From: Nannochloropsis oceanica
Lineage: Eukaryota > Sar > Eustigmatophyceae > Eustigmatales > Monodopsidaceae
Reading direction: 5' to 3'
Assembly (NCBI GenBank): GCA_004519485.1
Contig: CP038130.1
Location: 186,001-250,000, forward strand
Length of the DNA: 64,000 nucleotides
A model generated the notes under the pieces. It searched no databases. It saw only the letters and a program-made list of their open reading frames with translations, and was not told the DNA's origin. The position numbers and the translations under genes are program-made. Below, in pieces: positions 1-47,676 of the stretch (the stretch's first letter is position 1; each line of letters opens with the position of its first letter).

Positions 1-3000
1 CTCCGTACCTTAATTTTATCGATGCCCAGGGCCTTGGTCACTGCTACATAGGCTGCGTCCACCGGGCCTATGGTAGGGGGGAGGAAGGGAGGGAGGGAAG
101 GAAGGAGGAAGGGGGGGAGGGAAGGAGGGAGGAAGGGGGGGAGGGAGGGCAGCTGGTAAGGAAGCCGCTTGTCAAAGGATGGGGAAAGGGAGGGAAGGAG
201 GGAGGGAGGACAAAGACGTACCGGTGCCAGTGGCGGCCATGATGATTTCTTCGTTCGTTTCCTTGTTGAGGAGGCCGATGGTGGCCGTGGGTACTTGGCT
301 GTCACCGCAGATGACCTAGGGAGGGAGGGAGGGAGGGAAAGATGGGTGAGTGTTTGGCTCATTCGGTGTTTGAAGAGGTTGCCTTATGCAACCTCTCCCT
401 CCTTCCCTCCCTCCTTCCCTTCCTCCCTCCCCCCTTTATATTCATACCTGGCAGCGCACAAGCTCGAAATTTCCCGCGTCGAACTCGAGGCGCATTTCAT
501 CATTCACGATAGACTCCAAGTCAAGGTTGGTGATTTCCTGGGAGACGGAGGGGAGGGAGGGAGGGAGGGAGGGAGGGAGGGAGGGAGGGGGGGAAGAAGA
601 GTTTGATGCGGTGGGTTCTGACGGACCTGTCAATTTGAGTCCTGGCGGGCTTGCCATGTCCGAGTCTCATCTCCCTCCCCTCCCTCCCTCCCTCCCGCCC
701 TCACCTTCTTCTTGTCCGCCACCTCCTTGAACCGCACAAAGGCCTTATTCAACTCGGCGTCTGTCAGGGACTCGTAGCCCAGCTCCGTCAGGCGGGAACG
801 GAAGGCGGCACGTCCGGAGTGCTTCCCTAGGACCAATCCTGGAGGGAGGGAGGGAGGGAGGGAGGGAGGGCGGGAGGGAGGGAGGGAAAGGTGAGTCAAG
901 AGCCATGAGCCCGCTCCGTGAGACGAGGCCTGGAAAGAGGGAGGGAGGGAGGGAGGGAGGAAGGGAGGGGCGTACCGTTCTTGGCCAGGCCGATGGACTC
1001 GGCGTCCATAATCTCGTAGGTGGATTTGTTCTTCAACATGCCGTCCTGGTGGATGCCACTCTCATGGGCAAAGGCGTTGGCACCGACGATAGCCTTGTTG
1101 GGCTGGATGACCTGAGGGAGGGGGGAGGGAGGGAAGGAGGAATGGAGGGGGGGATGAGGGTGCTGGGCAATCGTGGGATGGAGGGAGAGGACGAGAAACA
1201 GCACTTGGCGATACCATGTTTTCTCCTATGCCTCCTTTTCCTCCCTCCCTCCGTCCCTCCCTCCCTCCGCACCATGCCCGTCAATGTAGAGACCAGGCGG
1301 GACGTCTTATAAATCTCAGTCGTACAGATGTTGGTCAAAGCGAGCTCACTCTCGGGCGTGCGTCCAAACCTGAGCAAGGGAAGGAAGGAGGGAGGGAGGG
1401 AGGGAGGGAGGGAGGGAGGGAGGGAGGGAGAAGGAAAGGATATGCAGGTGAAACGCAACGTCGTCTTCGCGTTCGCATCCGACCCTAGGGGAGGGAGGGG
1501 GGGAGGGAGGGAGGGAGGGAAGGAAAGAGAGCAAGGTAGTTTTACCTCGGGTTGTAGAAGGATTTACGGACGTGCAGCGCCATGACGATTTCTTCCAATG
1601 CCGCGTTTCCTGCGCGTTCTCCAATGCCATTAATGGTGCATTCCACTTGCCGCGCGCCGCCTTCAATGGCCGCCATGAAGTTAGCCACTGCCATGCCCAG
1701 GTCGTCGTGTCTGAGGGAGGGAGGGATGGAGGGAGGGAGGGAGGGAGGGAGGGAGGGAGGGAGGGAGGGAGGGGTATGGTGAGGCGACGCCCCTGATGGC
1801 TTCTTAATACCGCTACACTGCACGACAGGCAGGGATACCGCTACACTGCATGACAGGCAGGGATGGAGGCAGGGATGGATGGAGGGAGGGAGGGAAGAAG
1901 GAAGGGAGGGAAGGAGGGAGGGAGGGAGGGAGGGAGGGAGGGCTTACCCATGCACGGAGATGGTGACGCCTTGGATGCCCTTGACGTTGGCGCGGAGGCC
2001 CCGGATGAGGGACTTAAATTCACTGGGAGTGGTGTAGCCCACTGTGTCCGGAACATTCAGAGTAGTCGCACCCTAAAGGAAGGAGGGAGGGAGGGAGGGA
2101 GGGAGAGAGAGGTGAGAAAATTATGAGAATCAAGTGTCCATAGATCAGCCATTTCCTCTTCTTCCCTCACTCCCTACCTCCCTCCCTCCACCCTTTCCTT
2201 ACCGCCTCCACCGCCACTGAATACACTTCATACAGAAACGCTGGGTCGGACCTCAGGGCGTCTTCGGCCGAAAACTCTACGTCTTCGCTCAGAGATCGGG
2301 CATACGTCACCATTTCACGCGTAATTTCCAATACCTGAGGATGGGAGAGAGAGAGAGAGAGGGGGGGAGGGAGGGAGGGAGGGAGGGAGGGAGGGAAGGA
2401 TTTTGTGGGGGTATGGCCGGGCGGAGAGCTGAGGGGAAGGGAGGGAAGGATGGAGGGTAGAGAGGACAATCGAGAAACGAGGGAAGGAGAAAAGAAAGGA
2501 AGAAAGAAAGGAGGGAAGAAGGATGGAAAGAAGGCCGTACCTGCGCCCGGCTCTTCTTAAGCTTGTGCTGCATGTGGATATCACTCGTGGCAATGAAGGT
2601 ATGAATACGGGGAAACGCCGCGTGTTTCACAGCCTCCCAGCACGTCTCAATGTCCTTGTGCAAGGCCCTGGCCAAGCCGCAGATGATGGGGGGATTAACG
2701 GTATTCCCCACGGTTTGCGCGATCCGTTTCACGGCATCGAAGTCCCCTGGGCTGGCAATAGGGAAGCCAGCCTCGATGATGTCCACACCCAGCCTGGACA
2801 ACTGCCGCGCCACCTGAGGAGAGAAAACGGTCAGAATGAGTGATGTTTCTTGATTCCCACAAGATTTTGGTCACTGTCTGCGTCAAAAGTAAGTGGGAGG
2901 TGTGGAGGAAGGGAGGGAGGAAGGGTGACAGCACACTTGATATACCTGTACTTTTTCCTCCGCCGTCATGGTGCACCCAGGGCTCTGCTCTCCATCTCGA

Positions 3001-3404
3001 AGGGTGGTATCGAAAATCTTGACCCGCATGGGGTCACGGCCAGTCTCAATATCATGGCGGGTGGGAATTGGCCTCACTATGTCGTCGTCTTGAGGGTTGG
3101 AGGCAGTGCTGCTGCTGCTGGTTTTACTAACGGTGGTAGCCATCATTCTGATGGTAGGTTTGGACGAGCGTACGGCATGGTGACGCCAGAGGAAAGGAGA
3201 AGAGTGACGGGGCCTAGAGGTAGAAGTCGAGCGAGGTAGAGGTGTTTGATTTACTGGCAAGATAAAGGCCTGGGCGCTCGTTACCGAGGTGGCGGCCGCG
3301 GCGAGGGCAAGGAGGGAGGAGGCTACAACTACGCGTTGTCTTATCCTCGACGAGGTACAGCAGGAGAGTGACGAAGGCTTAGGGTTGCAGCTAGAAGACG
3401 GCAT
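1..3404 (-). CDS. leuA: 2-isopropylmalate synthase, plastid-targeted (3' end beyond window)
   Basis: Condenses acetyl-CoA with 2-oxoisovalerate, the first committed step of leucine synthesis. Eleven exons are readable: 3404-2946, 2813-2541, 2334-2213, 2072-1948, 1710-1546, 1369-1273, 1111-976, 838-705, 537-448, 315-222 and 67-9, all with phase-compatible GT-AG junctions. The first exon carries a basic N-terminus, a hydrophobic Ala/Leu stretch and an AQAFILP motif, which fits a heterokont bipartite plastid signal (ER signal plus Ala-Phe cleavage site). The catalytic TIM barrel follows: [13 protein letters not shown] (metal/acyl site), [20 protein letters not shown], and the HESGIHQDG metal site. 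KHSGRAAF leads into the linker. The last readable exon (GPVDAAY...) begins the leucine-feedback regulatory domain, the rest of which is off the left edge. I chose the ATG at 3404 because the in-frame triplet 18 bases upstream is TTG. The donor at 8-1 shows that a further exon lies outside. Confidence 0.93.
1808..1863. repeat. 28-bp tandem duplication in a leuA intron
   Basis: Two adjacent copies of a 28-base unit beginning taccgctacactgca differ by a single c/t. They sit in the intron between the fourth and fifth exons, next to GGGA repeats. Confidence 0.8.
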
Positions 3405-4030
3405 TGTGGTGCTGTGGTGCAATTTGTCCTACCAATGCACAGCGATGCTGTCTAATGGAATGAGACAGGAAGGCGGAAGCAAGCAGCGCCCTTTCCTTGC
3501 TTCCTTCTGCTCGTGATGATGGTGTCTGTTATGCGGTGTTTGAGTGACGGGAGAGTGGTGGTTGAGAAAATGAGCAGAGGAAGCATGCCAGTTGAATATA
3601 GGGCTTGGACATGTCGCCCCGGTTGTGTATGGCTGAGTGCTGTGGGTGGGGAGAGGTACGAAGAAATGCTTGGTGTGTTTGCATCCTTTGCTCGTCTTGG
3701 TGGGAGGCACGACGGTGAACGCAAGGCGTTGCCGTTCTGCATTGATCAGTGCCCAGGATCTATGTGCTAGGTTAAACACATGTCGCTCAAGCACAGCAAG
3801 ACACACACAAGTAGTGGGTGCAGCTTTTGCTAGTCAGGACGACATGCTGCTTGCCCCTTCAAGGAGCAGCTTCCGATATCTGTTTTCCCAACCAACGGCG
3901 AGGGATGGGCCACTCGTCATCCACGGACACAAAAGCAACATGTCAAGAGCCAAACAAGCAACAGGTGTACGATATGTAAAATGATGCCAGAATCATAATC
4001 AACACTTTCTTTTCTTTTTTGTTCGTAGTT
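3405..4030. other. intergenic, leuA 5' region and thioesterase 3' region
   Basis: No convincing coding sequence is seen. It holds the promoter and 5' leader of the minus-strand leuA gene and the 3' flank of the minus-strand thioesterase. It lacks the GGGA/TCCC repeats that fill the neighbouring introns. Confidence 0.6.
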
Positions 4031-6015
4031 TTACAATCGCGCCATTCTCCGCCGCCTGCCTTCCTCCTCCATTCTACCTACATCGAACAGGACATGGCTC
4101 TGGGTCAAGTATCGCCCGTCGCTCTTGCGCGTAAACCACACGCGGTAGGATGAAGGAATAAAAAGCTTCCCTTTCTCCGCTGAGGATGAGGCAGACGAGA
4201 GCTTGGAAACCATACAGGAGGGCCAAGAGGAGGAAACAAAGGTGGAGGGAGGTCGGTCGGACTTTATGCCTTTGATCACCAGCAGCAACTCCGTGTTCTT
4301 GCTGCATGGCGACATGTAGTCCACACTCAATGTCCGTGCCCTCGCTAACTGTGTCTCTCCCTCCTTCCCTGCCCATCGCGCGGCTTGTTGGTACAGGAGG
4401 AGGGCGGCACGCTCCGCGAGCATAGCAACGGCTCCTCCATGTAAAGAACCGAAGCTATTACACACTGCAGGGGCCACGAAAAAGCTGGCGGTAGCTTCGT
4501 AGCAGAAGGGTGATGAGGAGGAAGAAGGAGAGGAGGGATGGTGGATGATGAGGAAGTTTTGCAAGTCGAGCAGTTGGTTGACGTCGACTGGGGAGGGAGG
4601 GAGTGAGGGAGGAAGGGAGAGAAGGAGGATTGGAGACGTGAGCAAGTGTGGGAGAACGATAAGGTTACGCACTACTACCCTTCCAAATTCCCGGACATGT
4701 ACCACCCTACCTTTAATTTCCCGCCGTGCAATGACTGCCCCTCCCTCCGAGTCAGGATGCTGATTGCCCTTCTTTCCGCCTCCCCCTCCTCCTCCTCCTC
4801 CTCCTCCTCCACCTCCTCCTCCTCCTCCTTCTCCTCCTCGTAATACTGGTAGATAAAGGGTAGACACCAGGAAGTGCACAAGAGGAAAAGCCCATGGGTG
4901 CATGGCCACTGCCCAAGTATTTCCCATTTTCAAAAATTTAACGTGCCGACCAGTGGCGAGCTGGAAGAAGAGGAGGGAAGAAGGAAGGAAGAAAAGGATA
5001 AGCAGTATGTTTAAGATGACACGTCCCCTCCCCCTCTTTCCCACCAACGGCTACATACCTCCCTTCCAGTCGCCACATCTCGTAGCACCATGTCTGCAAA
5101 GCCCAGCGTGTCCCCCACCTTCTTGCAGTGCGACTCAATTTCCACCTCGGACCCTGCCCACACCCATCCGAGCACAGTGGTATTCAAGCTGACACTAACG
5201 CCTGGCCGATGCCGACCATCAGCCGAAACGAATCCCCACGATGATACCTCATCAAACCAGGCCATGATCGCCCCGGAATTTAATAAGGCATTACTATCGC
5301 AGAGATGAGGAGGGACGCAAAGCCGTACACGGACATGGGGCCCTGGGCCGATGTCAAGGGTTTCGAGGGAGTGCGGGTTGTCATTTGAACCTTTGTTACC
5401 ATGCAAAAGGACACCGGAGAAGGCACTGTGGGAAAGTTCGCGCATGAGCCGGAGGATCTTGCGGCTGGTGATGTCTTGGTCGGAGGCCCGGGGTGTAGTT
5501 GCTTCACAGCATGTCGTCGTCTGGAATGTTGAGGCCAATGGTAACAGTGCTTTGAAGGAGGCTGATGAAGGAGCCATGCCTACCAAGGGACCGCTGCAGC
5601 GTCCTAATGGCTTGATATGCCTGATTACGAAGTAGTGGAGGTATGGGGATGGGTTTCAGTGCATCCATGACCCAAATTTTGGCATCAAAAGACTTGTCTG
5701 GAGCGAGGACCGACAATCCGACCTCCTGCCTGAGTTTGCCTCATGGTTCCTTTTCCACAAAAATATGATTTACCTTTTTGCTTTGCTCAAGCACACCTAC
5801 AGGCCCCCACCACCCAGCATACCAGAATGGACAGCAAAATCTCCTTCTTGTTGGGAAAAGTGCCGGCCTGCCCGTCCCCCTTGCGCGACCGCGAGCAATC
5901 GTGCCCTCTCACAACTATTAGCCTCCTTACCTGCATCCCCCTTCCCCCTTCCCGACACAGATTCAGAGGGTGTTACGTCGGACAATACCACTCCGAATAA
6001 AGCATGCCGTAGCAT
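4031..6015 (-). CDS. double-hotdog acyl-CoA thioesterase (PaaI/ACOT13-like)
   Basis: Predicted to hydrolyse acyl-CoA thioesters; the substrate is unknown. The first hotdog domain contains NSGAIMAWFDEVSSWG, matching the catalytic helix pattern of the 4HBT/PaaI family, then VSVSLNTTVLGWV and, across a clean phase-0 intron (exon ends 5059, next begins 4970), LATGRHVKFLKMG, the usual last strand (compare ATGRHTK in ACOT13). A second hotdog domain follows at about 4590-4040, with FGSLHGGAVAMLAERAALL and LSVDYMSP, so the protein has the tandem form. The N-terminal exon (ATG at 6015) joins the next by a 44-base phase-matched intron (5773-5730). The junction near 5580-5510 and the low-complexity Gly/Glu region near 4680-4850 are not resolved, so the exon map is provisional. 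The start lies only 42 bases from the divergent kinase gene's start codon. Confidence 0.65.
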
Positions 6016-6057
6016 TGCAGCTGCCCCTTTATTGCAAAGCAGGCGTCTCAGTCTCAA

Positions 6058-9000
6058 ATGGTTACAATCAGTCCTGGAGGCGTCATCGAGGGGGATGATG
6101 AGAAGTCACCACCACCCTTGCTTGCTGTAGATGGGAGGGCGAGCGAGTCTACGGACACCAGCAGCATTCATAGCAATGGCAGGGACCGGGGCGGGAGCAC
6201 GCAAACCGATGATCTCGGACGTGTTGTAAGAGAGGGTAATGGCAGAGAAAAGGCGTCGCTCCCACCATCCACGACAGACGGTCGGAGCAACGGTCTCCTC
6301 GTCTTCTTTCAGAATGCTTTCCGGGAAGTGTATGACCCAGAATGGCGAGGACGGGTGCGTGCACATTGTTGGCGGAGTCTCGGAGGGGATTCTTCTGACC
6401 CCTTGTGGGGGCCTTTCCAATACTCGTACCTGTTGATGGCACTCTGGTCGGCCATTCTCCTCGTGGGCGCAGTCATGGCCAGTGCCCACATTGTCCTCTC
6501 CGGCGGCATCGTCCTGCTCTGGTTCTTCACACCCGCCTCGATCCTGATTCTCTCCATCCAAAAGCGGATCTGCTGGCCGTATACCTGTGCAGTCCTTATG
6601 AGCGTGGAAATTGTGGCTGTCTCCCTCGGGCATGGACGTATTTCCCGTGATACCCTGGCCGGTTTCGTACTCATCGTTGTCGACCTCGCCAACATCGCCC
6701 TGGGAACGCTCCTCCTCCGGCCCCTTGTCTCTAGCAGCATTTACATCGTACGCACGTCACCCTTTGTTCGGTACTTGGTAGCCTACGTCCTTATTGTTAC
6801 CCCGGCGTTCTCGCTCATTAATGGCGGCATCATCGTGCTCCTGCCCTCCAACAGCATTAACTGGCTCGGAGGACGTCAGTTAATCGTGGCGTGGCTACTT
6901 GGCGACTTCTTTGCCACATATTTCACCGTCTATGCCGTCCTTGTCTTCCGGCATACCATCGCCCAAGCCACGCACGACACGTACCGTGCCCGGGATTTAT
7001 GCACGTACTTGCAGCACCGGCTCCGGGCGGGGGGTATCTGGTTGAAGCTGCGGTTGGTAGAATACGCAGGGATGTTGATCCTCACGTACATCGTCGCCCA
7101 AGATGTGGCCACGTCCTCCAACTCCATCCGCGAATACGACCTGGGCCCACGGATGGCGTCGCGGTTGATGTTCCCGTTATTAGGCTTGGTAACGTTCCGT
7201 TTCGGCCAGTTCGGCTCGTGCATCGCCCTCATCGTTGCGTCAGCTGGCATCTTTACCGTGACATACGGACAGTTGGACCGGGGGAATCGCCTGACGGACA
7301 TTTTTTATCAGATTGACTTGTTGCTGGGCCCCATTCTGGTGGTATTTATCACCTGGAGCATGACCTTCTTGGCTGTGGCCTTGGCGGAGAAACAGGACGG
7401 GTTGAATCTGTTGGAGCAGAGGTGAGGGGGGAGGGAGGGAGGAAGGGAGGGGGGGGGGAAGGGGATGGGGGATAGGTAAGGGCGTGGTGGTACGACTTTC
7501 TCCCCGTGCCTGAAGCTTTTCTTTTTTACATCGCCCTCCCTCCTTCCGTCTCTCCTTCCCTCCTTCCCTCCTTCCCTCCTCTCCCACTAGAAATTTCCAG
7601 CTGCTCATGCAAGGTCGTGAGCTGCAGCAAGCCAAGTTGGAAGCCCAGCGAGCCCTGAGCACCAAAACGGAGTTCTTTGCCCGCGTCTCCCACGAATTCA
7701 GGACACCGCTTAATATCATCCTGGTAGGTGTAATTCGAGGTCATTCCCTCCGTCCCTCCCTCCGTCCGTCCCTCCCTCCCTTCCTCATTCTTAGTCTACC
7801 ACCTCTTTTTGCGAGAGCTCTTTCATCAAAGAAATTTGGCGACTGGTCATAGCTTGCCCCATTCAGCATTTGCTTAGCCCCCCCCTCCGTCCCTCCGTCC
7901 CTCCCTCCCTCTGTCCCTCCCTCCCTCCGTCCCTCCCTCCCTCCGTCCCTCCCTCCCCAGGGGTTTGCCGAAGAGATCAAGCGACAGGAGCTTCCTCCCT
8001 ACGTGCAGGAACGGATTGGCTACATCATCACCAGCGGAGAGAGCCTCCTCAGGTACTTTTCAACTCAAGAAGGAGAGGGAGGGAAGGTGGAAGGGAGGGA
8101 TGATCCCCTGTTCAATCGCGTTCGTTTCACACCTCTCCCACTTTCAATGTCAGGATCACCGTTCAGTTTCCTCACCTTCCCTCCCTCCCTCCCTCTCTTC
8201 CTCCCTCCCTCCCTCTTTCAGGATCGTCGACGACATTCTGGAACTGTTTCGCCTGTCGTCGAACCGGCTTCAGATCGACGTGTCCGTGGTGGATATCCAC
8301 TCCTACTTTATGACTCTCTGTGACCTGGTGCAGGTCATCACGGATAAGAACCAACGGCGACTGGAGAGGGTCCTTGATCCGTCTCTACCCAGGTGGGGAG
8401 GGAGGGAGGGAGGGAGGGAATGAGGGAGGGAGGAAGGAAGGGAGGGGTGGGTGGGGAGCCCTCGTTAGCAATCAACACCACCAATTTCACTCTTCCTCCC
8501 TCCCTCCCTCCCTCCCTCCCTCCCTCCCTCCCTCCCTCCCTCAGACATGTTCTTTTGGACAAGATTCGCTTCTCGCAATTGATCATGAATCTCTCGAGTA
8601 ATGCCGCCAAGTTCACTGGCACCGGAGGAAGGATTGTGGTGAGGCTGAAGGAAGGGAGGAGGGGGGGGAAGAAGGGGCTGTTGATGAAGCCGGCGCCTGC
8701 GATGCCGGCAGATACAGATGCTGGAGGACGGAGGGAAGGAGGGAGGGAGGGCGGGATGGAGGACGGGGATGGAAAGGTGTCGACTTCGACGCCGGCGGCG
8801 GTGGACGGTAGTGGTGGGAGCAGCAGCAGTAGCAGCGGCAGCAGCGGCAGCAGCAGCATGCCTTCCCCTCCTCCCTCCCTCCCCGGCAGCAGCAACGTCG
8901 ACGCGCCCTCCACCAAAAGCAATAAGAGTAAGCACAAGAGCAGCACCATCAGGAGCAACACCGCCAACAAGCCCCTCACAACGCCCTCGAAGGAAGGAGG

Positions 9001-10321
9001 GAAGGATCACACCCTCCTGGCCACCACCGCCGGCAGGGGGCTGACGAAAGGAGGAAGGGAGGGGAGGAGGAAGGGAGGGAGGAAGCAACACCGGGTGATC
9101 TGGCTCCGCCTGGAGGTGGAGGATGATGGAATAGGCATCCCGCAGAGCACCCAGGACCAGATTTTCAATTGTTTCTTCTCGGGCAATCAGCAGTCGGGAG
9201 GCGAAAAGGGGCATGGCCTGGGTCTGGCGATCACTAAGGAGCTAGTGGACCTGATGAAGGGCTCGATTGAGGTGACGAGTCAGGTCGGGGTTGGTAGTCT
9301 CTTCACGGTCGATCTACCCGTGAGGGTGGTAGAGGGGGAGGGGAGGGAGGGGAGGGGGGAAGGGAAGGAGAGAGGTCAGCGTAGGGCTGTTAGCTTGTCG
9401 GGGGGAGGGGCGGGAGCTGGACGTTCGGCTGCTGCAGCTGCTGCAGCTGCTGCAGCTGCTGCTGCTGTAGGTAAAGATAAAGGCGGCTCTCTTCTTCCTC
9501 CAAGACTGACTTCTCCTGGGGCTCCGGGTGGCCACAACGCCTCCCTCTCTCCCTCCTTTCCCTCTTCCTCTCACCGCGCGAGCCCGAGTAGCTACAACTG
9601 TAGAGAGACACGGGACCCGTCCCTCCCTCCCTCCCTGCTTCCTTTCCTACCTTCGAATCGACGTTTACAGGGACTTCGGATCATGGCAGTGGAGGATTTG
9701 CTGCCTAACCAAATGGTTCTGGGCGGTATGCTGAGGGAGGACGCTCATCATGTCCAGTTCGTGGAGACGGCCTTTGGGGCGTTAGAGATGCTGTCAAGGC
9801 ACCCGGGCCATTTTGACGTGGTTTTGTTGGGTACGTTGTGGAGGCGTGTATGTGTGTGTGTGTATGTTTGTCGTCCACGTGCGTGTGAGTATTCTGAAGT
9901 GTAAGGCGCCAGTCACTCGCTTTTCCATCTTTCTCTCCCTTGATATTCTTTACCGGTACACTTATCCTTCTTCCTTCCATCCATGCCTCCCGTTCTTCCT
10001 CCCTTTTTTGGGGGGAATGCAGACATCGAGCTCCCCGACGCACACGGCGTCACTGTCCTCACCCGCATACGTTCCCACCCTTCCCCCCGCATCGCGGCCA
10101 TGCCCGTTGTGGTGGTCACGGCCGTTGCCATGGACGGAGAAAGGAGCCGGTGTTTCCGTCATGGAGCCGATGATTTTGTGACGAAGCCTATTCGACTTGC
10201 CACGCTACGGTCGTCTCTTTTGGCGTTGTATCTCCGAGGGAGGCTCAAGGCAAGGGAAGGATTGATGGTGGTGGAGGATGGGGGAGGGAGAAAGAAAAGA
10301 GGAGGGGAAGGGGGAATGTAG
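6058..10321 (+). CDS. MASE1-type hybrid histidine kinase with receiver domain
   Basis: A membrane two-component sensor in six phase-matched exons: 6058-7421, 7591-7723, 7961-8052, 8222-8392, 8545-9830, 10023-10321. After about 110 polar residues comes a region of roughly eight to ten hydrophobic segments resembling the MASE1 integral-membrane sensor. The kinase core is complete: H-box ARVSHEFRTPLN, N-box LIMNLSSNAAKFT, G1 VEDDGIGIP, F-box IFNCFF and G2 GHGLGLAI. A Gly/Ser/Lys-rich insertion of about 150 residues separates the N-box from G1, and a poly-Ala linker precedes the receiver. The receiver keeps the acidic pocket (AVED), the phospho-acceptor Asp in LLDIELPDA (assembled exactly across the last intron), VVTA and TKP. 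All catalytic residues are therefore present, predicting a phosphorelay that needs a separate HPt partner, not seen here. The ligand sensed is unknown. Confidence 0.88.
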
Positions 10322-10727: not shown

Positions 10728-12620
10728 ATGGTTACCGTGACAACAGTCGATGAGAACGAAGACGGACTCGACTTGATCCTCCGCGAGCTCGCCCTCCAAC
10801 CTCCATCAACAGCATCCACGACAGCACCACCGCGCACGACCACAACAAGCATGACGACAATAACCATAGCGACAACGAAGGATCGCGAAAGCATACGAAC
10901 CAGAGGGGACTGGAACGATCGGGAACAAGACTCTGTAGACAGAGAGGCTTGGCCACGGGGATCCGAAATTGATGAGACCCGTACCCTTTATTTTCAAGGA
11001 CAGCTCCGAGAATACATTCAGGACATGGCAGATTCCTTCATTTTGCAGGAAATCGAAGCTCGTCTGGCCGATAAGCCGTACAAGGAGCTTGCGAGCTACT
11101 ATGAGGGCAAATCTGAGATGGCGAAGTACACCCTGGACCATGAGGTGGGGCGAATGGCGTACCGAGTCATTGACAGCATGGCGACGGGAAATGGGGGGGC
11201 CGTGGCTGCTGATTGTGGTTTTGGTGCTCTCGAGAGTGACTGCTGCAGCCGCAGCTCTGTAGCCATCACTCCCAGACTTTCACTGTCCCCTCCTCTTCTC
11301 CTTGCCGAGAATGACCCCCCCTCCATCCGCGCCGCCTACGCCATGCACCCGCATCTCTTTTCCTGGCGCTTAGCCAATCAAAGCCTTTTCGCTGAGCTCC
11401 TTCAAGAAATACAATTCAGTTTTATTAGAGCTGATTTAGAGGTAGGCGTTGTAAGTAAAAACTCTCAATTCGTCCTCGACGTGGGAAGGGATAGGTTGAA
11501 GGGAGTATCGATGTTTTATGTCTTGCTAGCGGCAGCAGAAGAGGGACCTGTGGAGGTGGCGAGGATTGAAGGGGTGGTGTCCGTTGATGTGCAAAAAGAG
11601 TGCTGGACGCACAAATTAAGGCTCGTGAAGCTTCAGCCTGTCTTTGACGATGTCTTGAGGAAAGTGGCAGAGGCCCTAGCAAGGCATGAGGGAGATGGGC
11701 GGGGGAGGGAGGGTGGAAGGGAGGGAGGAAGATGGTGGGGGGGAACGCCGCGAGTGCCATTGGCATTTGACGGCTTGAGGGAGGCAGGGCAGGGGTTGTT
11801 GCAGGCAGTGACAACAGTGGGTAGGATGATTGAAGACGCGGCGATAGCTGCTGATGAGGAGGAGGGAGGGAGGGAGGAAAGGAGGGAAGACGGGAAGAGA
11901 GGCAATGAGAAGCTCCTAAAAACGTCCGGGACGCGGACCCACCCCAAGTGGGGGAATGGAACAGGGATGGATGCTGTAGAGGGAGGGAAGGAGGAGGGAA
12001 GGGAGAAAGGGGCCAGTGAATTTCTGAGCGGATGGCCTGATTTGATATGGGCGGAGGGGAAGTCCCCTAGTCCTACTTTTACTGTTCCTGCTGCTGCTGC
12101 TACGCCACTCGACGTTTCGGATGCGGCTGCTGCAGCATGGTCTGGTGTAGAGGGAGGAGGAGGAGGAGGAGGAGGAGGAGGAGGAGGAGGAGGAGGAGGA
12201 GGAGGAGGAGGAGGAGGAGGAGTAGGAGGGAGAGGAGGGGGAGGCCTATGGCGGTTCTTGCAATACAGCGGAGACATGCAGCCAGCACATCCCTCCTCTT
12301 CCAAGTTACACCAGCAGGAGCACCAGGAACTCCAACGGCAACAGCAGCAGCAGGAGGTGCAGCAGGAGGCGCAGCAGGAGCAGCAGCAGGAGGAGGGGGA
12401 GGAGGAGCAGCAGGAGGAGGACGAGGACAGACCGTCGTTATTCTTGGGAGGGCCGCCCTCCGGGTACTTGAAGGGGTTCATGACGGGAGTGGGAGGCTTC
12501 ATTGTGAGGGGAGTGGAGGCCGCGATGACCGAGGATGAGGGAGGGAGGGAGGGAAGGAGGAAGAGTGAGTTGGGGCTAGGTGAGCTCTTGCGACGACGGG
12601 ACGCAGCGGAAAGGGAGTGA
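10728..12620 (+). CDS. uncharacterised 630-residue protein with poly-Gly and Gln-rich regions
   Basis: I do not recognise this family. A single open frame of 630 codons starts at an ATG in good context (caccATGg). Residues about 80-160 look ordered and helical (GQLREYIQDMADSFILQEIE, then a stretch with KELASYYEGKSEMAKYTLDHEV). Residues 205-320 form a second ordered block (FSWRLANQSLFAELLQEIQF, DVGRDRLKGVSMFYVLLAA, KLQPVFDDVLRKVAEALA). The remainder is low complexity: GGRE-type runs, a pure GGA tract encoding about 25 glycines (12152-12222), and a Gln/Glu-rich segment. No signal peptide or membrane span is evident. The two ordered blocks with long disordered tails suggest a scaffold or regulatory protein, which is inference only. 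It converges with the hydrolase gene downstream. Confidence 0.6.
   Translation: MVTVTTVDENEDGLDLILRELALQPPSTASTTAPPRTTTTSMTTITIATTKDRESIRTRGDWNDREQDSVDREAWPRGSEIDETRTLYFQGQLREYIQDMADSFILQEIEARLADKPYKELASYYEGKSEMAKYTLDHEVGRMAYRVIDSMATGNGGAVAADCGFGALESDCCSRSSVAITPRLSLSPPLLLAENDPPSIRAAYAMHPHLFSWRLANQSLFAELLQEIQFSFIRADLEVGVVSKNSQFVLDVGRDRLKGVSMFYVLLAAAEEGPVEVARIEGVVSVDVQKECWTHKLRLVKLQPVFDDVLRKVAEALARHEGDGRGREGGREGGRWWGGTPRVPLAFDGLREAGQGLLQAVTTVGRMIEDAAIAADEEEGGREERREDGKRGNEKLLKTSGTRTHPKWGNGTGMDAVEGGKEEGREKGASEFLSGWPDLIWAEGKSPSPTFTVPAAAATPLDVSDAAAAAWSGVEGGGGGGGGGGGGGGGGGGGGGGGVGGRGGGGLWRFLQYSGDMQPAHPSSSKLHQQEHQELQRQQQQQEVQQEAQQEQQQEEGEEEQQEEDEDRPSLFLGGPPSGYLKGFMTGVGGFIVRGVEAAMTEDEGGREGRRKSELGLGELLRRRDAAERE
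12152..12222 (+). repeat. (GGA)n microsatellite encoding poly-Gly
   Basis: Uninterrupted GGA trinucleotides lie inside the 630-residue coding frame. The reading frame stays open on both sides. Confidence 0.85.
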
Positions 12621-14658: not shown

Positions 14659-15410
14659 GGTCCCGGCTGCTCCAAATATCGAAGCCTGAGCATGTAGAAT
14701 GTATTATGGATAGGTTTATCGTCGGTACGTGACGCACTGATGAGAGTGATGGAATGGAGAGGTTGTGTGGAACAAGTAGCAAGCAGGCAGACGGTTGTGG
14801 GTTGAAGGAGAGCGGTTGCTTGTCGGTCGAGACTGCAGGCGTAGAGCACACCAAAACCGAAGCAAATGATGTGCAAGTTGTGTCAGCCAGCATCCTCGTG
14901 CTCGTATCATTGTCGTGGACAAACGCGCGGACCTGCCACTTGACCACCGATGGTGGAGCCCCTGGTGCTTGGTATGAGAAACGCAACACTTCTTCCCCAC
15001 TTTTTGTGGGGAGCGAGTGGATCTCCCTGCTTTTCTCTTGGTCTTGCACACACACACCGCGGCTTAACAGGCCTGGTTGACCACCATGCCCCGCAGGCCT
15101 TTCCCTAAAAACAAGCCAGTGATATCTTACAGTTAAACGCAGGCCGGCGAACATGCAGCGACTGCTGGTGGGACGAAAATTAGTGATCGAGCAGCCAGTC
15201 AGACGCCTCCGGAGGGCGCCTTGGGAGTACAGGAGATACTTCACCACTGTCCCCAGCATGACTCATCCTCTCTTTCCAACGTTGCCTCTTTATGTACACG
15301 GACAGGAAGACCACCAGCAGCCCACCTGCGCCATCATCGTCGTCGCCGTTGGGTCTGTCGCGTTTGGGATCATTTTCTTGCCTCGTCCCCGCACCAGCAA
15401 GAATAATATA
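14659..15410. other. divergent intergenic region between hydrolase and GLDC
   Basis: Probable bidirectional promoter. It also contains an ATG at 15153 that reads in frame into the GLDC first exon. The extension would begin with an Arg-rich segment ending RRYFTT (mitochondrial-presequence-like) and include a hydrophobic stretch (CAIIVVAVGSVAFGIIFLP). It is unresolved whether this is a longer GLDC N-terminus or a separate tiny gene. Confidence 0.4.
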
Positions 15411-39392: not shown

Positions 39393-40447
39393 AGGAAGGG
39401 AGGGAGGAAGGGAGGGAGGAAGGGAGGGAGGAAAGGAGGGAGGGAGGAGGAGTGTATGTAGAAGATGAAAGGGGAGGAGGAGAAGTAATGGGAGAGGGTG
39501 GTTGAAGAATGGGGGGGGAAAGGGAGTGGAAGACAAGAAGCACAGCAAATATTGAGATGAAGGAGCCCGCGCGAGAGAGAGACGGGACAAAGGTTTCTGC
39601 CATTGTATCGTTGTTGATGTCGCTATAGTTCTTCTATTTAATGATGTGATTGTCATTGTGATTGTTGTTGCGATGATTGTTGTTGCGATGGTTGTTGTTC
39701 TCTTCACTTTCTTCCTCCTCTCTTTGTCGACGCTCTCTATTTTTACCCCTCCTTTCCTCTTTCATGTTCGATTCATCATGTTCCAATTTAAATTGTTTTT
39801 TAAATTTTGTGCCGTTGCTTTTCATTCGGGTGGGGGTGCTTTTTGTTGCTTTGGCAGTTGGTGTCATTTCTCATTTCCTCCTTGCTTCTCTCTCTTTCTC
39901 TCTCACTTACACACACACAGACACGGACGTAAAAGCACAGAGACACACACCGACTTGTCATCAGAAGGGGGGATGAAAGGAGGAGAGAAAAAACAAGCAA
40001 GCGACGGCATCTTCATCTCGTCGATGCCACGCACAGGCCCCTCCCTCCTTCCTTTTCTCCCTTTCACCTTCCCTCCCGTCATATCACCACACTCTCTTTC
40101 GATTCTGCTGCTGCTGCTTGGGGCCATGTTCCTCTCTCAGTCATTCTCCTACCTTTCTATTCTAGCCTTGAGACATGCAAAAATCTCTCTCTTCTTCCCC
40201 TCATCTCTCATTCGTTTTTCTTTCTCTTTTCTTCTCCCTCTCTTGTCTGTTCTGATGGTATGAATAAATAAAAAGACAAAGGTATTGTTACATGCATAAA
40301 TATATGGCTATCGTGTCAAGACCTCTCCCTGCCCCTCCTTTAGCTTGTCTCTACTACCGCCCATCACCCACATGTCCTTGCTGCTTCTGCTACTGCTACC
40401 GCTGCTTCCCTTCTTCCTTCCTTCCCTCCCTCCTTCCCTCCCTCCCT
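39393..40447. other. convergent 3' flanks, NDUFB9 and NDR kinase
   Basis: No supported gene. Holds GGGAGGAA repeats just after the NDUFB9 stop, a GTTGTTGCGAT imperfect repeat (39650-39700), and AT-richer sequence with AATAAATAAA at 40263, a candidate polyadenylation signal. Confidence 0.55.
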
Positions 40448-42604
40448 TTACGCCTCCTCCTCCCCCATCATCCAACTCCCCTCACTCTCCCCCCTCTCCA
40501 ACACCGTCGGCGGCGGACCAAACAGCCCCTCCTCCACCACCCCCCTCACCACCAGCTTTGTGCTTCGTTTGTAGGTATATCCTATGAACTCCCCCCCTTC
40601 CCCCTTCCCTCCCCCTCCCCCTCCCTCCCCCGCATTCCTCCCCCCCCCTCCCTCCACCTCCGGAAAATCGTCAAAATTCGCAGTTATTTGCTCAATTAAC
40701 GGCTGAAACCTCGCATCTCTCCTCTCTACGCCCTTCAGGTCCTCCATCATCCCTCTCAATACCTCCGACCCCTCGGGACGGTACGGTGCCTCGAGCTCCT
40801 TCAGTCCCTCCCATTCCAGCCCTGACGTGGCAAACCACGGGTGGGCCTTGATCTCCTCCAGGCCGTTCCTTCCCAACCTCCTTTCTGCTGGTGCAATGAG
40901 TGAATGCATGAAGTCCAAGCACGCGGGGCTGACCCTCGAACGTACCTCCGCCGGTACCTCCAAGTGTTGCTGCCACCGTAAGATTTTCCGGCATGTCATG
41001 ACGGGCTCGTCGGCGTAAAACGGCGTGTACCCCACGAGGCATTCATACATGATCACCCCTAGACTCCACCAGTCGCATTCACGGCCGTAGCCCTTTTGCA
41101 TCAGAACTTCAGGTGCGATGTAATCAGGCGTGCCTACGGTGGAATAAGCAAGCTTACGGTCACGGGTAGGGGTGACAAGGGGAGGAGGAGGGGTGGAGGG
41201 ACGCCGGGAGGAAGCGGAGGAGGTAGGCAGGTGAGGTGCACAGTGTGGGTGGTGGTAATGGTGATGGTGGTGGGGGTGCGAGGGGGAGGGAGCGCGATTG
41301 CAGGCCCCGGCACCGTCAGCAGGCGAGGCATGGACAGAGATGGAGGAGCCGTCGTAGAGAAGGGGAGAGTCTTCCAAATCCACCTTCTTACACAGACCCA
41401 TATCGCTCAGTTTGAGATGACCGTCCCAATCGAGAAGGATGTTGTCGGGCTTGAGGTCCCGGTGGATGTAGCCGAGCTCGTGGACACTCGCGACGGCCAT
41501 AACCATCTCGGCCATGTATTGACGGGTGGCGGCTTCAGGGAAGGTGTCTTCCCGGATGAGGAGGGTCATCAGGTCCCCACCGGGGAGGAACTCCATCACC
41601 ATGTGGAGCATCTGAGAAGGGAGGAAGGAGGGGAGGAAGGGAGGGTGAGGGTGAAGTCTTCAAATCAAATCAGTCTCTTATATCGCATTGGTACCGGGTG
41701 GAAGCATCCTCTTTCGTCCTTCCCTCCCTCCCTCCCACCTGTCCTCCCTTTGTACCTGCTCATCTTGGAAGGAATAGTGCAACGTGACAATCCATGGATT
41801 ATCCGCAACGGCCAAAACGTCTCGCTCCGCCCGCACATGCCCTACTTGGTTCTTCCTGACCATGGCTTCCTTAATCATGGACTTCATAGCGTATACCTCG
41901 CCGTTGGACTTCTTTTTCACCAGGTGAACCTACAAAGAATAGGAGGGAAGGAGGAATGGATAACTAGCCTGCTGTATTGCTCTCGTGCATATTTACATCC
42001 TCTTTTACTTCCCCTCCTCCACAATCTCCCTCCCTCCCCTCCCTCCCTCCCTCCCTCATTCCCTCCCTACCTCTCCAAACGCTCCCCTCCCAATGATGAC
42101 CAAAGGATCGAAATCATCCGTCGTCAAGCGTCGCTGTTGCTCGCGCTTGTGTTCGTCTTCCATTCGTTGGAGCTCTGCCCGGTAATGCTCTTTTTGGATC
42201 TCATCCAAGTTGAGGCGGGCCTGCAAGGAAGGAGGGAGGGAGGGAGGGAGGGAGGGAGAAAGGGAGGGATGGATGGATTGGGTAAGTGGACCAGGCACAA
42301 AAGTCAAGGTCCACAAATCTCACTTCTCGGCCAACAAATGCCGACAACTCGGTCACTGGGCGCTTGGCCCTCTCTTCCTTCCCCAGTTGCTTACCATTGT
42401 CTCCTCCAAATTCGCCCGTCGGTCCTTCTCCTCCTCCTTGTCCCGTCTTAGACGCTCGTACTTCTCTTCCAGGTAAGCTTTCATCCGATCTGCCTTGTCA
42501 TTGGCTACCGCCTCTGCCGACATTCGCCCAGGCGTTCCGGGGGGCACGAGTCCTCTCCCCCCTCCTCCTACTGCTCCGGCTGTTCCTGTCCGCCGCGACG
42601 CCAT
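40448..42604 (-). CDS. NDR/LATS-family AGC kinase (Hippo/MOR pathway)
   Basis: Nuclear Dbf2-related Ser/Thr kinase. Exons are 42604-42395, 42220-42071, 41929-41756 and 41611-40448, with consistent phases. The N-terminal MOB1-binding helices are [17 protein letters not shown] and [20 protein letters not shown]. Kinase motifs are IGRGAFGEV (glycine loop), EVYAMKSM (VAIK Lys), [13 protein letters not shown] (catalytic loop) and [11 protein letters not shown]. The activation-loop phosphosite is in [10 protein letters not shown] and the hydrophobic-motif site is in FIGYTYKRS. The DFG motif reads SDMGLCKK, that is DMG. The activation-segment insert typical of NDR kinases is long and His/Ser/Pro-rich (41330-41150) instead of basic. 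A Gly/Glu-rich low-complexity stretch (from GGGA-type DNA) precedes the hydrophobic motif. Likely function: morphogenesis and cell-cycle exit with a MOB cofactor. Confidence 0.92.
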
Positions 42605-44956
42605 GCCCGAGAGCAAGCCGTGCTGCTGGTGCTGCTGGTGCTGCTGGTGCTGCTGGTACTGCCCCAGGCGGTCGTTGTTATATGCGTCTAGACAAGATGT
42701 TTGCCCGGTGGTCGATGGCGTGTCTCACGTCGTCACCACGTGGGGACGCCGTGCACGATGTCGCCCCGTTGAACGGGACGTCAAGTCCACGTGCTACACC
42801 CTTTGCCCCCCCGTCCCCCTGTCAAAAAGCGAGCGTGAGTGGTGGGAGAAGTGTGTGTGGGTACATAAGTAATTCGTCGTCGTATATGCATCCACGCAGC
42901 AAATTCGTAGAACATTTTGGATGAGGGCAAGCGCATGTCAAAGGTCGGTCAAAGAAGAGAAGCACGAGTATGAAGGAGATGAATCGTGTGTCTGGTGTGT
43001 GGACTCATGGGCGCGTCTGATTTGCCCCCCCCCACACGAGGCTAAGTATTCAGAGGCAGAGGAGAGAGACAGACATAACGTGGCGTGTCTTTGGCATCCC
43101 TGTATTCGCCGGCATCGTCCACACGATGGGGGGCGGAGAACAGAAATAGCGCAGGGACGAGCAAGCAAAGGAAAATACCTAAAATGAGTTCATATGGTGA
43201 ATTAAATCGAGATATGAGTGGATTGATGCGTGCGTATGAGAGACTCTTGCGTCTTCTGCTCTCGGGAGTCCCTCAGCGCAGCATCCTGATTTTGCTCCTC
43301 TCGTCGTGACGACGACATGATTCCGCGTGTGCGTTTTTTGGGGGTGCGGGGAGAAGAGAAGTGCACATCAAAAAGCTTGCATGGACAATTACCGACACAG
43401 CACACCATAAGATTATTTCATAAGAGGGCCATTCATGCAGGTGGACGAAGGGCCTCTTGGTTTGGTCGGTAAAGCATGACACAGACACTCAAGCCACACA
43501 CCGGCAGGGCCAAGGCTGCCGCCGCCGTTCGCCCGCCGTTAGTTTCCTACAATCCTACAATCATAGCGTGCAACCTATCCGCAGACAAATGCAAACACCA
43601 AGTATTTACACGAGAGTGTCTCCACTCAGGACTACACACGAGGAAAAGCATTCAAAAAATAAATTGTTGCATATTCTTTCCTTATTTTGCCGAATTTTCA
43701 TTGCTTTGACAGTTTTTTTTCACCAGCAAGCAGTGCAGAATTCGAGTATTTGAATGGCCCATGAAAAGGACGAGATACGCCTTAGTGTGGCGTGTCTAAA
43801 CTGTCCCTGCCTTGTATACATGTTCCCAGATTTCATAATTTGGTAAAGCTCACACATCCAACAATTGAGACAGTGAATAATGCGAGGGAGAGTGGTCCAA
43901 TAAAGAAGTGCTATGAGACACTCGGAGTGGCTACCAAGACAAGCGATGCCTGCGCGTTGTTTGTTCACAGAAAACCTCTTCCTTGTGTAAGCCTGCTATT
44001 TGATGAATCAGTGTGGATGCTGCGAAATAGACTTACGCTCTTTGAAAAAATGCGCGCGAACGCGCTGAATGTGCGGGTGTCCGTGTGGAATTTCCTATTT
44101 TTGCAGGACCAAGAAGACCTTTGAGCACAGAAATTATGAGGTCTTTTCCCATTCTCTTGTAACCCATTTTCTTTTAAAAAGTGTAAGTAATGAGTCGTAT
44201 CATTTTTATATCAGTCACCATATGGGACACGGCAGGATCGCACCGTGCCTGCCCTCCTTCCCTGCCTCCCCTCTCCCCTGGACTAGCACGACGAGTGAAA
44301 AACCCACAGAGAGAGAGACAATGAGAATTATCGCAGGATAGATGTTGGGCCAAGTCTGGATTGATCGGAATACGAATGTTTGTACGTAATTTCTAAAGTC
44401 TTTCGCGTCCCTCTGAAATCGAGCCTTAGGAGAGTCCGCGAGCAATTATGTTCTCCACTTAGACTTCACCTGTCTTGAGAACCAAAGTATTCCATTACAC
44501 GTAAATATCATCAAGGAAAGTATCTCAGAAGCGGAGAAACATTATGCTCGAGTGCACACTTGGACCTTGACTGGTTTTACACGACGTCCCCATCTCTGCG
44601 GGCAGGTTGAACGAGCCTCCACTCCGTCATTCCTTGCGGTCCCTGACAGCCAACCGTGTGCAGTCGACAACAAAATATTGTGTAGGAGGAAAAGAGGAGA
44701 GAAAACTATTGCATGGCCTCGTTCTCCTTCGTTTCCTCAGTGTTTGTTGCCTCAGTCTTCCCCCTCGGCCCTTTCATCATCAGGCCGTGTCCCCAAGGCA
44801 AGCACGGGCAGCCAAGCAAAGACTCTAGATGTGGCTTGATCAAATTTCCAAAGACAGCATGGAAAAGTTAACTAAATAAACAGATATCCGTGGCTACACC
44901 GCCCATATTTTATCTTTCACTTGGCCTCCCTCGGCATGAGGAGGCCGGATCGTGCG

Positions 44957-44967
44957 TTTGGCGGGAA
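44957..44967 (+). promoter_or_regulatory. E2F/DP-type site upstream of RNR2
   Basis: The sequence TTTGGCGGGAA is a full match to the classical E2F consensus (TTTSSCGS family). It lies 522 bases upstream of the RNR2 start codon; the transcription start is unknown. RNR small-subunit genes are established E2F targets in animals and plants. Confidence 0.5.
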
Positions 44968-45011
44968 GGCGGGGAATTGTTAATTTACGAACGGTCTTCG
45001 CCAAGAATGAA

Positions 45012-45019
45012 GGCGGGAA
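45012..45019 (+). promoter_or_regulatory. second GGCGGGAA E2F-like core
   Basis: A second GGCGGGAA core lies about 50 bases after the first and in the same orientation. It lacks the TTT arm, so it is weaker evidence. Confidence 0.35.
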
Positions 45020-45478
45020 GTGGAAGTGTGTTGCAGAAGCCTTAGCACAAAGCTGGTCGACAAGTCCTTATTCTTTCTTTTCTGCATTGCTGGCGTGGTT
45101 TAGGGGTCCACCGTGTACAAAGAATACTCGCAGTGCGCTTGTACTGGGCCTGGTATTCATCTTTTGTGTCAATTGGCAGCAAATAAGTGGTCGTTCGTAA
45201 CCTTCTCGCTTCCTCTGGCAGCAGGCACCAAGGCACACCCCGCGCTCTCCACTACACCACGCATGCACACACAACCACCTTCACCTCACGCACATCAGCA
45301 CACGCCAATGTGCGCAGTGCCCACGTCCGTTTCCTTGCATTTACTGACTCAGTGCCTGGGGGTCTGAAGCGTTCCGGCCGCCCCTCATTTCATGCCTCCC
45401 GTCCCGCCTTCGCACGTCTGACTAAGTCCCCTGCACACACAACATACAGAACTCCCACTACCAGTACCACCGGCTACC

Positions 45479-47676
45479 ATGCCCCTCACCGAGCACACCA
45501 ACGTGGCCCCAGTGCCCGAGGACCTGGCTGCGACCATGGAGCAGAAATTGTCCCTGGCCAGCAAGAGCGCCGCCGCCGCCCTGCCGGACGAAGAGCTCGT
45601 GCTTAAGCCTTCTGAGATGAAGCTGCGTGAGCTAGCAGGCGAGATGGACAACGAGCTCCTCCTAAAGGATAATCCGGGCCGCTATGTCATCTTCCCCATT
45701 CAGCACCAGGATGTACGTATTGACAGACGGAGGTGGTAGTGGGGGGGGGGGGCTAATTGCCGTGTGCCTTGTTTTCCCGCCCTCTTCTGCGGGTGTGTGT
45801 GTCTGCCTTAGGTCCATCTTGCCCAGTATTGGCATTGGCAGCACAGCAACAACCTGGCAGGGCAAGCTTCCTGCTGTGTTTACCGCTGTATCTGCAGTGT
45901 CTATTGCTCAAGTTGTTTCCCGCCTTCTGTGGTCTGTGGAGGGAGGCTCGTGCCTCGGCATGCGCAGCCTCCCTCCCTCCTCTCCATGCCTGCCGCGCCA
46001 GCACCATCATTTATGCGTACCTTCTCGACAGGAGGCAGGCAGCAAGTGTGTGATGAAATGGAGATGTATAGGTTCTGCTGCTCGCTTTCTGCTGCTTTCC
46101 TGCCCAATACTCTCGGTCCCCACTTACCATCACTTCCCTCCTTCCCTCCCTCCCCTCCTCCCACCTTTCCCCCGGCACCACCACAGATCTGGGACATGTA
46201 CAAGCAAGCTGAGGCCTCTTTCTGGACGGCGGAGGAGCTGGACCTGGCCCACGACAAGACTGACTGGGAGAAGCTTTCCGACAAGGAGCGTCATTTCGTC
46301 TCGCACGTCCTCGCCTTCTTCGCCGCGTCCGATGGGATCGTTAACGAAAACCTGGCCTTGAACTTCTCCAACGAGATTCAGCTGCCGGTGCGTGCTACGG
46401 ATCTATCGTTTGATTGAGTCATGACCCCACCCCCCTCCCTCTTTCTGTGTTGGCGTCTTCGTCGTTGTCTCACTCCCACCTCCCCCTCCTTCCCTCCTTC
46501 CCGCGCTCCCCCCCCACCTCGACTGCACAGGAGGCCCGCTGCTTCTACGGCTTCCAGATAGCCATCGAGAACATCCACAGCGAGGTATACTCCCTCCTCA
46601 TCGACACGTACATCAAGAACGGTCAAGAGAAGCACAAGCTCCTCAATGCCATTGATACTGTGCCTTGTGTCCGTCGGAAGGCGCAGTGGGCCCTCAGGTG
46701 GTGCGACCGGAAGTACGCCTCTTTCGCCGAGCGCCTGATTGCGTTTGCGGCTGTGGAAGGTATATTTTTCAGTGGGTCGTTCTGCTCGATATTCTGGCTG
46801 AAGAAGAGGGGTTTGATGCCGGTAGGTGGGGAGTGGGGAGGGGAGGGGGGAGGGAGGGAAGGCGGGAAGGAGGGAGGGCTGAATTGACGACCTTTGTTAC
46901 CAAGCTGTCTTGTTTTCAATGTATGTATGAATCTAAACCTTTCCTTTCTCCCCTCCCCCCTCCCTCCCTACCTCAGGGGCTCTCCTTCTCGAACGAGCTC
47001 ATCTCCCGCGACGAGGGTTTGCACTGTGACTTCGCCTGCCTCCTATACAGCAAGTGCAGCATCAAGTGCCCGGAGGAGCGTGTGGTGGACATCATCAAGG
47101 ACGCGGTGGCCATCGAGAAGGAATTCATCACCGATGCCCTGCCCGTGGAGCTGATTGGGATGAATAGGTGAGTCCTGTCTCCCTCCCTCCCTCCCTTTCT
47201 CTTTCCCGCCCTCCCTCCCACCCTAAGGGTTTACCGAGGAGGCTGCCCCTGCCGTATAGATCACTTTTCCTCCTCACCCTCCCTCTCTCCCTCCCTCCCT
47301 CCTTTATAGCCGCCTCATGTGCGACTACATCGAGTTCTGCGCCGACCGGCTCCTTTTGTCGTTGGGCTGCTCCAAGGCGTACCATACCCGGAACCCGTTT
47401 GACTGGATGGACCTCATCTCCTTGCAGGTAGGAAGGGAGGGAGGGAGGAATGGAAAGAAGGGAGGGTGTGAAGGAGTGCCTCTTTCGTATTCCATACTGC
47501 CGAACTCCGAGGCAACTTACCCACCACCCCGTTTCTCTTTCCCTCCCTCCCTCCCTCCCTCCCTCCCCCCACAGGGCAAGACCAACTTTTTCGAGAAGCG
47601 CGTGGGGGAGTACGCGAAAAGCGGCGTCGGTGGAAATGTTGAGGACCAGGTTTTCTCTCTGGAGGCCGAGTTCTAA
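45479..47676 (+). CDS. RNR2: ribonucleoside-diphosphate reductase small subunit (R2)
   Basis: Supplies the diiron-tyrosyl radical for class Ia ribonucleotide reductase in dNTP synthesis. Six exons in consistent phase: 45479-45712, 46187-46387, 46531-46821, 46977-47167, 47310-47427, 47575-47676. The Fe ligands are visible in [45 protein letters not shown] and [12 protein letters not shown]. The radical Tyr is within IHSEVYSLL and neighbouring helices. The C-terminus [10 protein letters not shown] is the canonical tail that docks on the large subunit (FTLDADF type). Length is about 378 residues, as expected. Introns end in TCCC or mixed pyrimidine tracts, and one opens with GTAGGTGGGGAGTGGGGAGG. 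The upstream E2F-like sites fit S-phase expression. Confidence 0.96.

Follow-up and report, generated by a model that had tools for sequence, protein, structure and literature searches.

Tandem arrays of the tetranucleotides GGGA and TCCC accompany many splice sites of Nannochloropsis oceanica, as was observed in a 64,000-nt stretch of the genome of this alga (contig C4:186001-250000; "the window", to which all coordinates refer unless a contig is named). Read on the sense strand, the arrays at the acceptors are strongly polarised towards TCCC, whereas the arrays at the donors are hardly polarised. The acceptor arrays are most likely unusually long, C-rich polypyrimidine tracts, and we consider it likely that the arrays in general are splicing signals that were enlarged by tetranucleotide slippage.

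The assembly analysed comprises 29,264,788 bases in 32 contigs; the available passages of the report on the N. oceanica assembly give 32 pseudochromosomes and 54% GC (PMC6610115). Introns were called ab initio with a purpose-written hidden Markov gene finder, in which the splice signals were GT and AG alone. Its non-coding model was strand-symmetric, and therefore, it could not prefer GGGA over TCCC. The sample comprised 314 kb (C4:126001-390000 and C1:200001-250000), in which 101 genes with 336 introns and without in-frame stops were predicted. Fourteen introns from models with less than 450 nt of coding sequence were excluded, and 70 of the remaining 322 were excluded because their length was outside 60-500 nt or a flanking exon was shorter than 50 nt, which left 252 filtered introns. 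Unless stated otherwise, an array was scored when an exact 11-mer of the GGGA or TCCC type occurred within the first or last 60 nt of an intron. A looser criterion, a match of at least 13 of 16 positions, was applied to GLDC and the other named gene models. The evidence for the introns consists of predicted models, homology and Pfam domains from one genome.

The two intron ends did not yield uniform results. Among the filtered introns, TCCC arrays were present at 81 acceptors and GGGA arrays at 5 (binomial p ~1e-18), whereas the donors carried GGGA in 46 cases and TCCC in 33 (p = 0.18). The original prediction had assigned GGGA to the donors and TCCC to the acceptors. Its acceptor half was borne out, while GGGA polarity as a rule for donors was rejected. 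In plus-strand genes, 56 TCCC and 2 GGGA acceptors were found among 131 introns, in minus-strand genes 25 and 3 among 121. Genes on both strands thus agree in sense orientation, and the repeats follow the splice sites rather than the strand of the chromosome, as had been proposed. Looser thresholds did not change the result; at a 13/16 match, for example, the filtered introns had 132 TCCC and 17 GGGA acceptors and 74 GGGA and 57 TCCC donors; the respective numbers for the unfiltered 322 introns were 83, 12, 53 and 36. In a control rerun, the array positions were masked as uninformative to the gene finder, which resulted in 297 introns, 238 of them identical to the first set. In 229 introns of this rerun, TCCC was found at 67 acceptors and GGGA at none, and the donors carried GGGA in 31 and TCCC in 24 cases. 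Single motifs were also quantified in 74 introns of 110-300 nt that lack an 11-nt array. GGGA occupied 2.7% and TCCC 1.1% of the positions in the first tenth of these introns, and 0.2% and 4.2% in the ninth tenth. In the 37 introns that also lack an 8-nt tandem, the values were 1.3% and 0.7% in the first tenth and 0.2% and 2.2% in the ninth. These percentages reveal a preference for G at donors at the level of the motif, which the arrays show only weakly.

The arrays are far more abundant than expected by chance. The window contains 50 GGGA and 69 TCCC runs of at least three units, while about 0.005 and 0.009, respectively, would be expected from the base composition alone. In the complete assembly of 29.26 Mb, 42,221 overlapping matches to (GGGA)4 were found on both strands. 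An earlier genome paper gives, in the passages available, a value of 8.7% for simple and low-complexity repeats (PMC3499364). In the 314-kb sample, arrays cover 7.3% of the intron, 0.9% of the intergenic and 0.2% of the exon sequence. The coverage of introns is thus about eightfold that of intergenic DNA, in line with the expectation that the repeats are tied to introns. An array was present in 129 of the 252 filtered introns, and by extrapolation the N. oceanica introns with arrays probably number thousands. In 144 introns of 140-300 nt, the arrays concentrate at both splice sites, with a trough in mid-intron. GGGA coverage is about 12% near the donor and declines to 0 near the acceptor, and TCCC coverage has its main peak at the acceptor (26%) and a smaller one at the donor (8%). 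Compared with mid-intron, G- or C-runs are likewise more frequent close to the donor or ahead of the tract. The first 47 kb of the window are dominated by the tetranucleotide arrays; (TG)n dinucleotide arrays occur at 50328-50451 (62 copies) and 55628-55673 (23 copies). A (GGA)n tract of about 30 copies at 12153-12244 lies within a predicted exon and encodes a glycine run.

The gene for glycine dehydrogenase (P-protein), GLDC, illustrates the pattern. Residues 61-1020 of the spliced protein align to the glycine dehydrogenase structure 4lgl_A with 1234.8 bits and a few short gaps, and the model probably extends too far at both ends. The model and the 17 introns within the homology-covered region are as follows:
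14754 to 22545, plus strand: GLDC model, 23 predicted introns, 17 of them within the homology-covered region
16305 to 16499, plus strand: intron, GGGA on the donor side, TCCC on the acceptor side
16638 to 16856, plus strand: intron, GGGA on the donor side, TCCC on the acceptor side, with (TCCC)16 at 16776-16839
16992 to 17248, plus strand: intron, both ends of the TCCC type
17374 to 17531, plus strand: intron, GGGA on the donor side, TCCC on the acceptor side
17632 to 17813, plus strand: intron, both ends of the TCCC type
17934 to 18108, plus strand: intron, GGGA on the donor side, TCCC type on the acceptor side by the loose match
18252 to 18469, plus strand: intron, both ends of the TCCC type
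18890 to 19034, plus strand: intron, GGGA on the donor side, TCCC on the acceptor side
19128 to 19315, plus strand: intron, both ends of the TCCC type
19393 to 19637, plus strand: intron, TCCC type along nearly its entire length
19721 to 19992, plus strand: intron, GGGA on the donor side, TCCC on the acceptor side, CTAAC directly before the acceptor tract
20160 to 20436, plus strand: intron, GGGA on the donor side, TCCC on the acceptor side, with (TCCC)14 at 20376-20431
20583 to 20743, plus strand: intron, both ends of the TCCC type, CTAAC before the acceptor tract
20890 to 21057, plus strand: intron, both ends of the TCCC type
21240 to 21363, plus strand: intron, both ends of the TCCC type
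21514 to 21678, plus strand: intron, GGGA on the donor side, TCCC on the acceptor side
21822 to 21980, plus strand: intron, TCCC on the acceptor side, donor without array

All 17 acceptors are of the TCCC type and none is of the GGGA type, as had been claimed; with the exact 11-mer, TCCC was found at the acceptors of 16 of the 23 model introns. The seven GGGA donor positions that had been named (16305, 16638, 17374, 18890, 19721, 20160 and 21514) are all intron starts in the ab initio model. The claim that about eight GLDC introns begin with GGGA was numerically correct, but it does not establish a polarity, since 8 of the 17 donors are of the GGGA type, 8 are of the TCCC type and 1 has neither. 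The longest perfect arrays of GLDC reach 16 units. With 336 introns in the 101 genes of the 314 kb, the gene models average about 3.3 introns per gene, which is above the 2.87 exons per gene given for the published assembly in the passages available (PMC6610115). Genes with many introns and many arrays, GLDC among them, are possibly under-annotated; alternatively, the 314-kb sample may be unusual.

The same rule had been proposed for four further genes in the window:
1 to 5577, minus strand: leuA (LeuA domains by Pfam), fused in the model with an upstream gene; the start of this model, at -407, lies outside the window
6058 to 10321, plus strand: histidine kinase model with a HisKA domain by Pfam (only the HisKA piece was tested); "hybrid" is the label of the original prediction
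40308 to 43318, minus strand: protein kinase model with a protein kinase domain by Pfam; "NDR" is the label of the original prediction
45479 to 47676, plus strand: ribonucleotide reductase small chain (RNR2) by Pfam, 5 introns

TCCC-type acceptors were found in 13 of the 17 introns of the fused leuA model, 6 of 7 in the histidine kinase model, 3 of 7 in the protein kinase model and 5 of 5 in RNR2. The two kinase models contained one GGGA-type acceptor each, in the predicted introns 9308-9379 (histidine kinase) and 40556-40657 (protein kinase), and we suspect that both of these introns are doubtful. The numbers of GGGA and TCCC donors were 5 and 6 for leuA, 3 and 1 for the histidine kinase, 4 and 0 for the protein kinase and 1 and 2 for RNR2. 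The acceptor arrays of these genes are mostly TCCC, as predicted, but donors of both kinds occur in leuA, RNR2 and the histidine kinase.

Several properties of the acceptor arrays fit polypyrimidine tracts. Between positions -25 and -5, C plus T amount to 82% in the 129 array introns and to 64% in the 123 array-free introns. In 41 of 74 introns with an acceptor array, the 20 nt before the acceptor tract contain a branch-point-like CTNAY motif, compared with 7 of 68 for a control window 40 nt further upstream (six introns were too short; p = 7e-9). In a slightly different selection of introns, the motif was present in 38 of 78, versus 21.7 expected from shuffles, and its A was located at a median of 50 nt from the intron end (range 17-99, 38 introns). 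A U2AF65-like coding stretch was found at C23:436221-437264, which scored 302.5 bits to TIGR01642, just under the cut-off of 310.3; 2 of 14 control genomes also matched this family below the cut-off. A second, weaker U2AF65-like match in two pieces is located at C6:190115-191281.

We propose that slippage, as judged from this one genome, would be the engine that enlarged the signals at both intron ends. The (TCCC)n array on the acceptor side would be a polypyrimidine tract that is rich in C and has expanded in the space from the branch point to the terminal AG, and it may be recognised by the U2AF65 homologue or by another C-binding protein. GGGA would be excluded from this stretch because it is purine and would add one AG per unit. 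In the 5' half of the intron, neither orientation would create a GT or damage a required element, so that GGGA and TCCC could both persist. The donor arrays probably grew from short G-run or C-run motifs beside the donors, which might act as intronic enhancers, as motifs of this kind do in other eukaryotes.

Some results weigh against this reading. No CTNAY motif lies within 20 nt of the tract in 33 of the 74 acceptor-array introns. The ratio of AG to GA is 0.81 near acceptors and 0.99 near donors, which is a mild depletion, and GT/TG is equally depleted (0.79). As the AG depletion is weak and not specific, we rely on the requirement for pyrimidines more than on the exclusion of AG. Elsewhere U2AF65 prefers U-rich tracts, and its recognition of C-rich tracts can then only be conjectured. 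Lastly, an annotation-free count favours GGGA at donors more than the 252 introns do. In this count, the donor-like word AGGTRNG had to be followed by a run within 20 nt on the forward strand, which was the case for 1335 GGGA and 416 TCCC anchors genome-wide. The permuted word AGTGRNG gave 456 and 35, respectively, and the excess of 879 over 381 corresponds to a ratio of 2.3 to 1. However, at the predicted donors of the sample, AGGTRNG precedes 21 GGGA and 8 TCCC arrays, compared with 46 and 33 at all donors. The word thus over-counts GGGA, and the true genome-wide ratio is likely to be nearer to 1. Both orientations are clearly enriched behind donors genome-wide. Backward controls of the gap patterns, which consist of other words and are not composition-matched, gave 1468 forward and 867 reverse matches for GGGA (versus 1335 and 2715) and 106 and 62 for TCCC (versus 416 and 1017). 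We infer that reverse-strand matches count each anchor once per repeat unit, and therefore, forward counts and permuted-donor patterns were used.

The array load is not uniform along the chromosomes. In consecutive 44-kb steps of C4 from 126 kb onwards, arrays were present in 25 of 39, 44 of 64, 31 of 57, 20 of 46, 10 of 39 and 13 of 44 introns, and at C1:200-250 kb in 6 of 33. On C1 (1,670,642 bp), the GGGA-donor pattern merges to 76 anchors among the 100 matches listed, the last of which lie near the contig end; 42 of these anchors are located within 200 kb of the contig start, 22 at positions above 1.33 Mb and 12 in the 1.13 Mb that separate the two regions. On the stretches examined (C1 and C4:126001-390000), the arrays are denser toward the chromosome ends. 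This variation with position would reflect mutational input, and splicing as such probably does not depend on the arrays; array-poor genes are presumably spliced too, which also argues that arrays are probably not required. Regional slippage that acts on splice-signal seeds would be the simplest account.

The positional differences would also be compatible with ordinary neutral microsatellites in non-coding DNA that are kept from the acceptors by purifying selection alone. The nearly free orientation at donors and the high number of array-free introns (123 of 252) fit this alternative as well. However, simple neutrality in unconstrained DNA predicts neither the eightfold higher coverage of introns than of intergenic DNA nor a concentration at both splice sites with a trough in mid-intron. 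We regard it as unlikely, yet as an alternative that deserves to be taken seriously. A more far-reaching idea sees the chromosome ends as a compartment where a two-part splicing code, with G- or C-runs at the donor and C-runs at the acceptor, is amplified into long tandem arrays by slippage, and where the array length tunes the splicing efficiency of genes according to their position on the chromosome. It is speculative, and we doubt that it applies.

The original prediction had suggested that the complementary GGGA and TCCC ends of an intron pair and thereby bring the splice sites together, like the AC/GT introns of fish. Indeed, 25 of the 252 introns carry both a GGGA donor and a TCCC acceptor array, and these would pair strongly, with a mean duplex energy of -77 kcal/mol for 23 of them (from genes with at least 3 filtered introns). 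In the 314 kb, GGGA followed by TCCC outnumbered the opposite order 22 to 3 at distances of 70-120 nt; the numbers were 16 and 16 at 120-170 nt and 14 and 61 at 170-320 nt. Genome-wide, 3772 versus 3289 matches were counted for gaps of 100-130 nt. This excess of one order is, however, what the separate preferences of each end alone would give.

The presence of both orientations at the donors speaks against ends that were made to pair, and direct comparisons did not reveal a link between the two ends. TCCC acceptors were present in 25 of the 46 introns with a GGGA donor and in 20 of the 33 with a TCCC donor (odds ratio 0.77, p = 0.65), although the 95% interval of 0.31-1.92 for these 79 donor-array introns is compatible with a moderate effect. 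In the masked rerun, TCCC acceptors occurred with 13 of 24 TCCC donors and 15 of 31 GGGA donors. Genome-wide, a TCCC run was found 70-100 nt downstream of 271 of the 1335 GGGA-donor and 133 of the 416 TCCC-donor anchors on the forward strand; the former value is lowered by background anchors and the latter is possibly raised by TCCC-rich introns. The energy of duplexes between an intron's own ends (-29.9 kcal/mol) did not differ from that of same-gene swaps (-29.1 kcal/mol, p = 0.41; 195 of the 252 introns, from genes with at least 3 filtered introns). Permutation within genes with 80-nt ends gave 26 GGGA-TCCC introns versus 22.8 expected (p = 0.13) and 21 TCCC-TCCC introns versus 17.1 expected (p = 0.06). 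Introns without a donor array have a TCCC acceptor in only 36 of 173 cases, compared with the 25 of 46 and 20 of 33 given above, which shows that arrays tend to occur together within introns irrespective of their orientation, as would be expected from a regional array load. A duplex would, in addition, bury the polypyrimidine tract. In summary, selection for end-to-end pairing is not supported, and pairing as the cause of the pattern is very improbable. About a tenth of the introns may pair physically, but the pattern does not need it.

We give little credence to the idea that the GGGA arrays at donors act via RNA G-quadruplexes that regulate splicing or transcription. Of the 252 introns, 56 have a four-tract G3 motif within their first 60 nt and 9 within their last 60 nt, but TCCC arrays, which are unable to form a quadruplex in RNA, are nearly as common at donors (33 versus 46). 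A transcription-coupled strand asymmetry in mutation or repair was rejected as the cause of the orientation and is hardly credible, because the orientation changes with position within one transcript, mixed on the donor side and TCCC on the acceptor side, and the flanks of 87 genes have no consistent sense bias (6 genes with a GGGA run and 3 with a TCCC run upstream, 15 and 10 downstream), although overlapping sense-strand 11-mers in introns (494 TCCC versus 196 GGGA) and in the 1 kb upstream of genes (49 versus 12, from 3 and 6 genes) are biased towards TCCC.

Taken together, the results suggest that a large share of the polypyrimidine tracts of a genome can become near-perfect microsatellites and leave genes such as GLDC intact. 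N. oceanica, which is small and transformable, offers a natural experiment, as repeat arrays of varying length and orientation adjoin its splice sites. The results also contain a warning: when the two ends of an intron carry complementary repeats, each end may have acquired its repeat under constraints of its own, and selection for pairing need not be involved. A description of such arrays in Nannochloropsis was not found in the parts of the open-access literature that were searched, and the available passages of two N. oceanica genome papers do not describe repeats beside splice sites (PMC6610115, PMC3499364).

The arrays can be compared with three known systems. With the polypyrimidine tract of U2-type introns, the acceptor arrays share their pyrimidine content and their position ahead of the 3' AG. 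A CTNAY-like motif often lies just upstream of them, and the genome holds a U2AF65-like gene. In contrast, the N. oceanica tracts are perfect tetranucleotide arrays and C-rich rather than U-rich. The fish introns with AC/GT repeats share with some N. oceanica introns the complementary simple repeats at opposite ends, as far as the available parts of the reports show (PMC9198270, PMC7404189). In N. oceanica, however, the donor repeat occurs in either orientation and without a preferentially complementary acceptor. A further mark of the repeat-paired class would be structure-dependent splicing without a need for U2AF2; a U2AF65-like gene is present in N. oceanica. For human introns, splicing enhancers made of G-runs or C-runs have been described upstream of the polypyrimidine tract. 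They are short triplet motifs, which were tested in minigenes, and each kind could replace the other partly or fully, according to the passages available (PMC2481429). This mutual replacement fits the donor half of the N. oceanica introns, which accepts either orientation, but the N. oceanica arrays are long and in tandem, and they are putative enhancers. The components, i.e., the polypyrimidine tract, G- and C-run enhancers and microsatellites, are thus all known, and their genome-wide fusion into long arrays is, within the portion of the literature searched, an undescribed variant.

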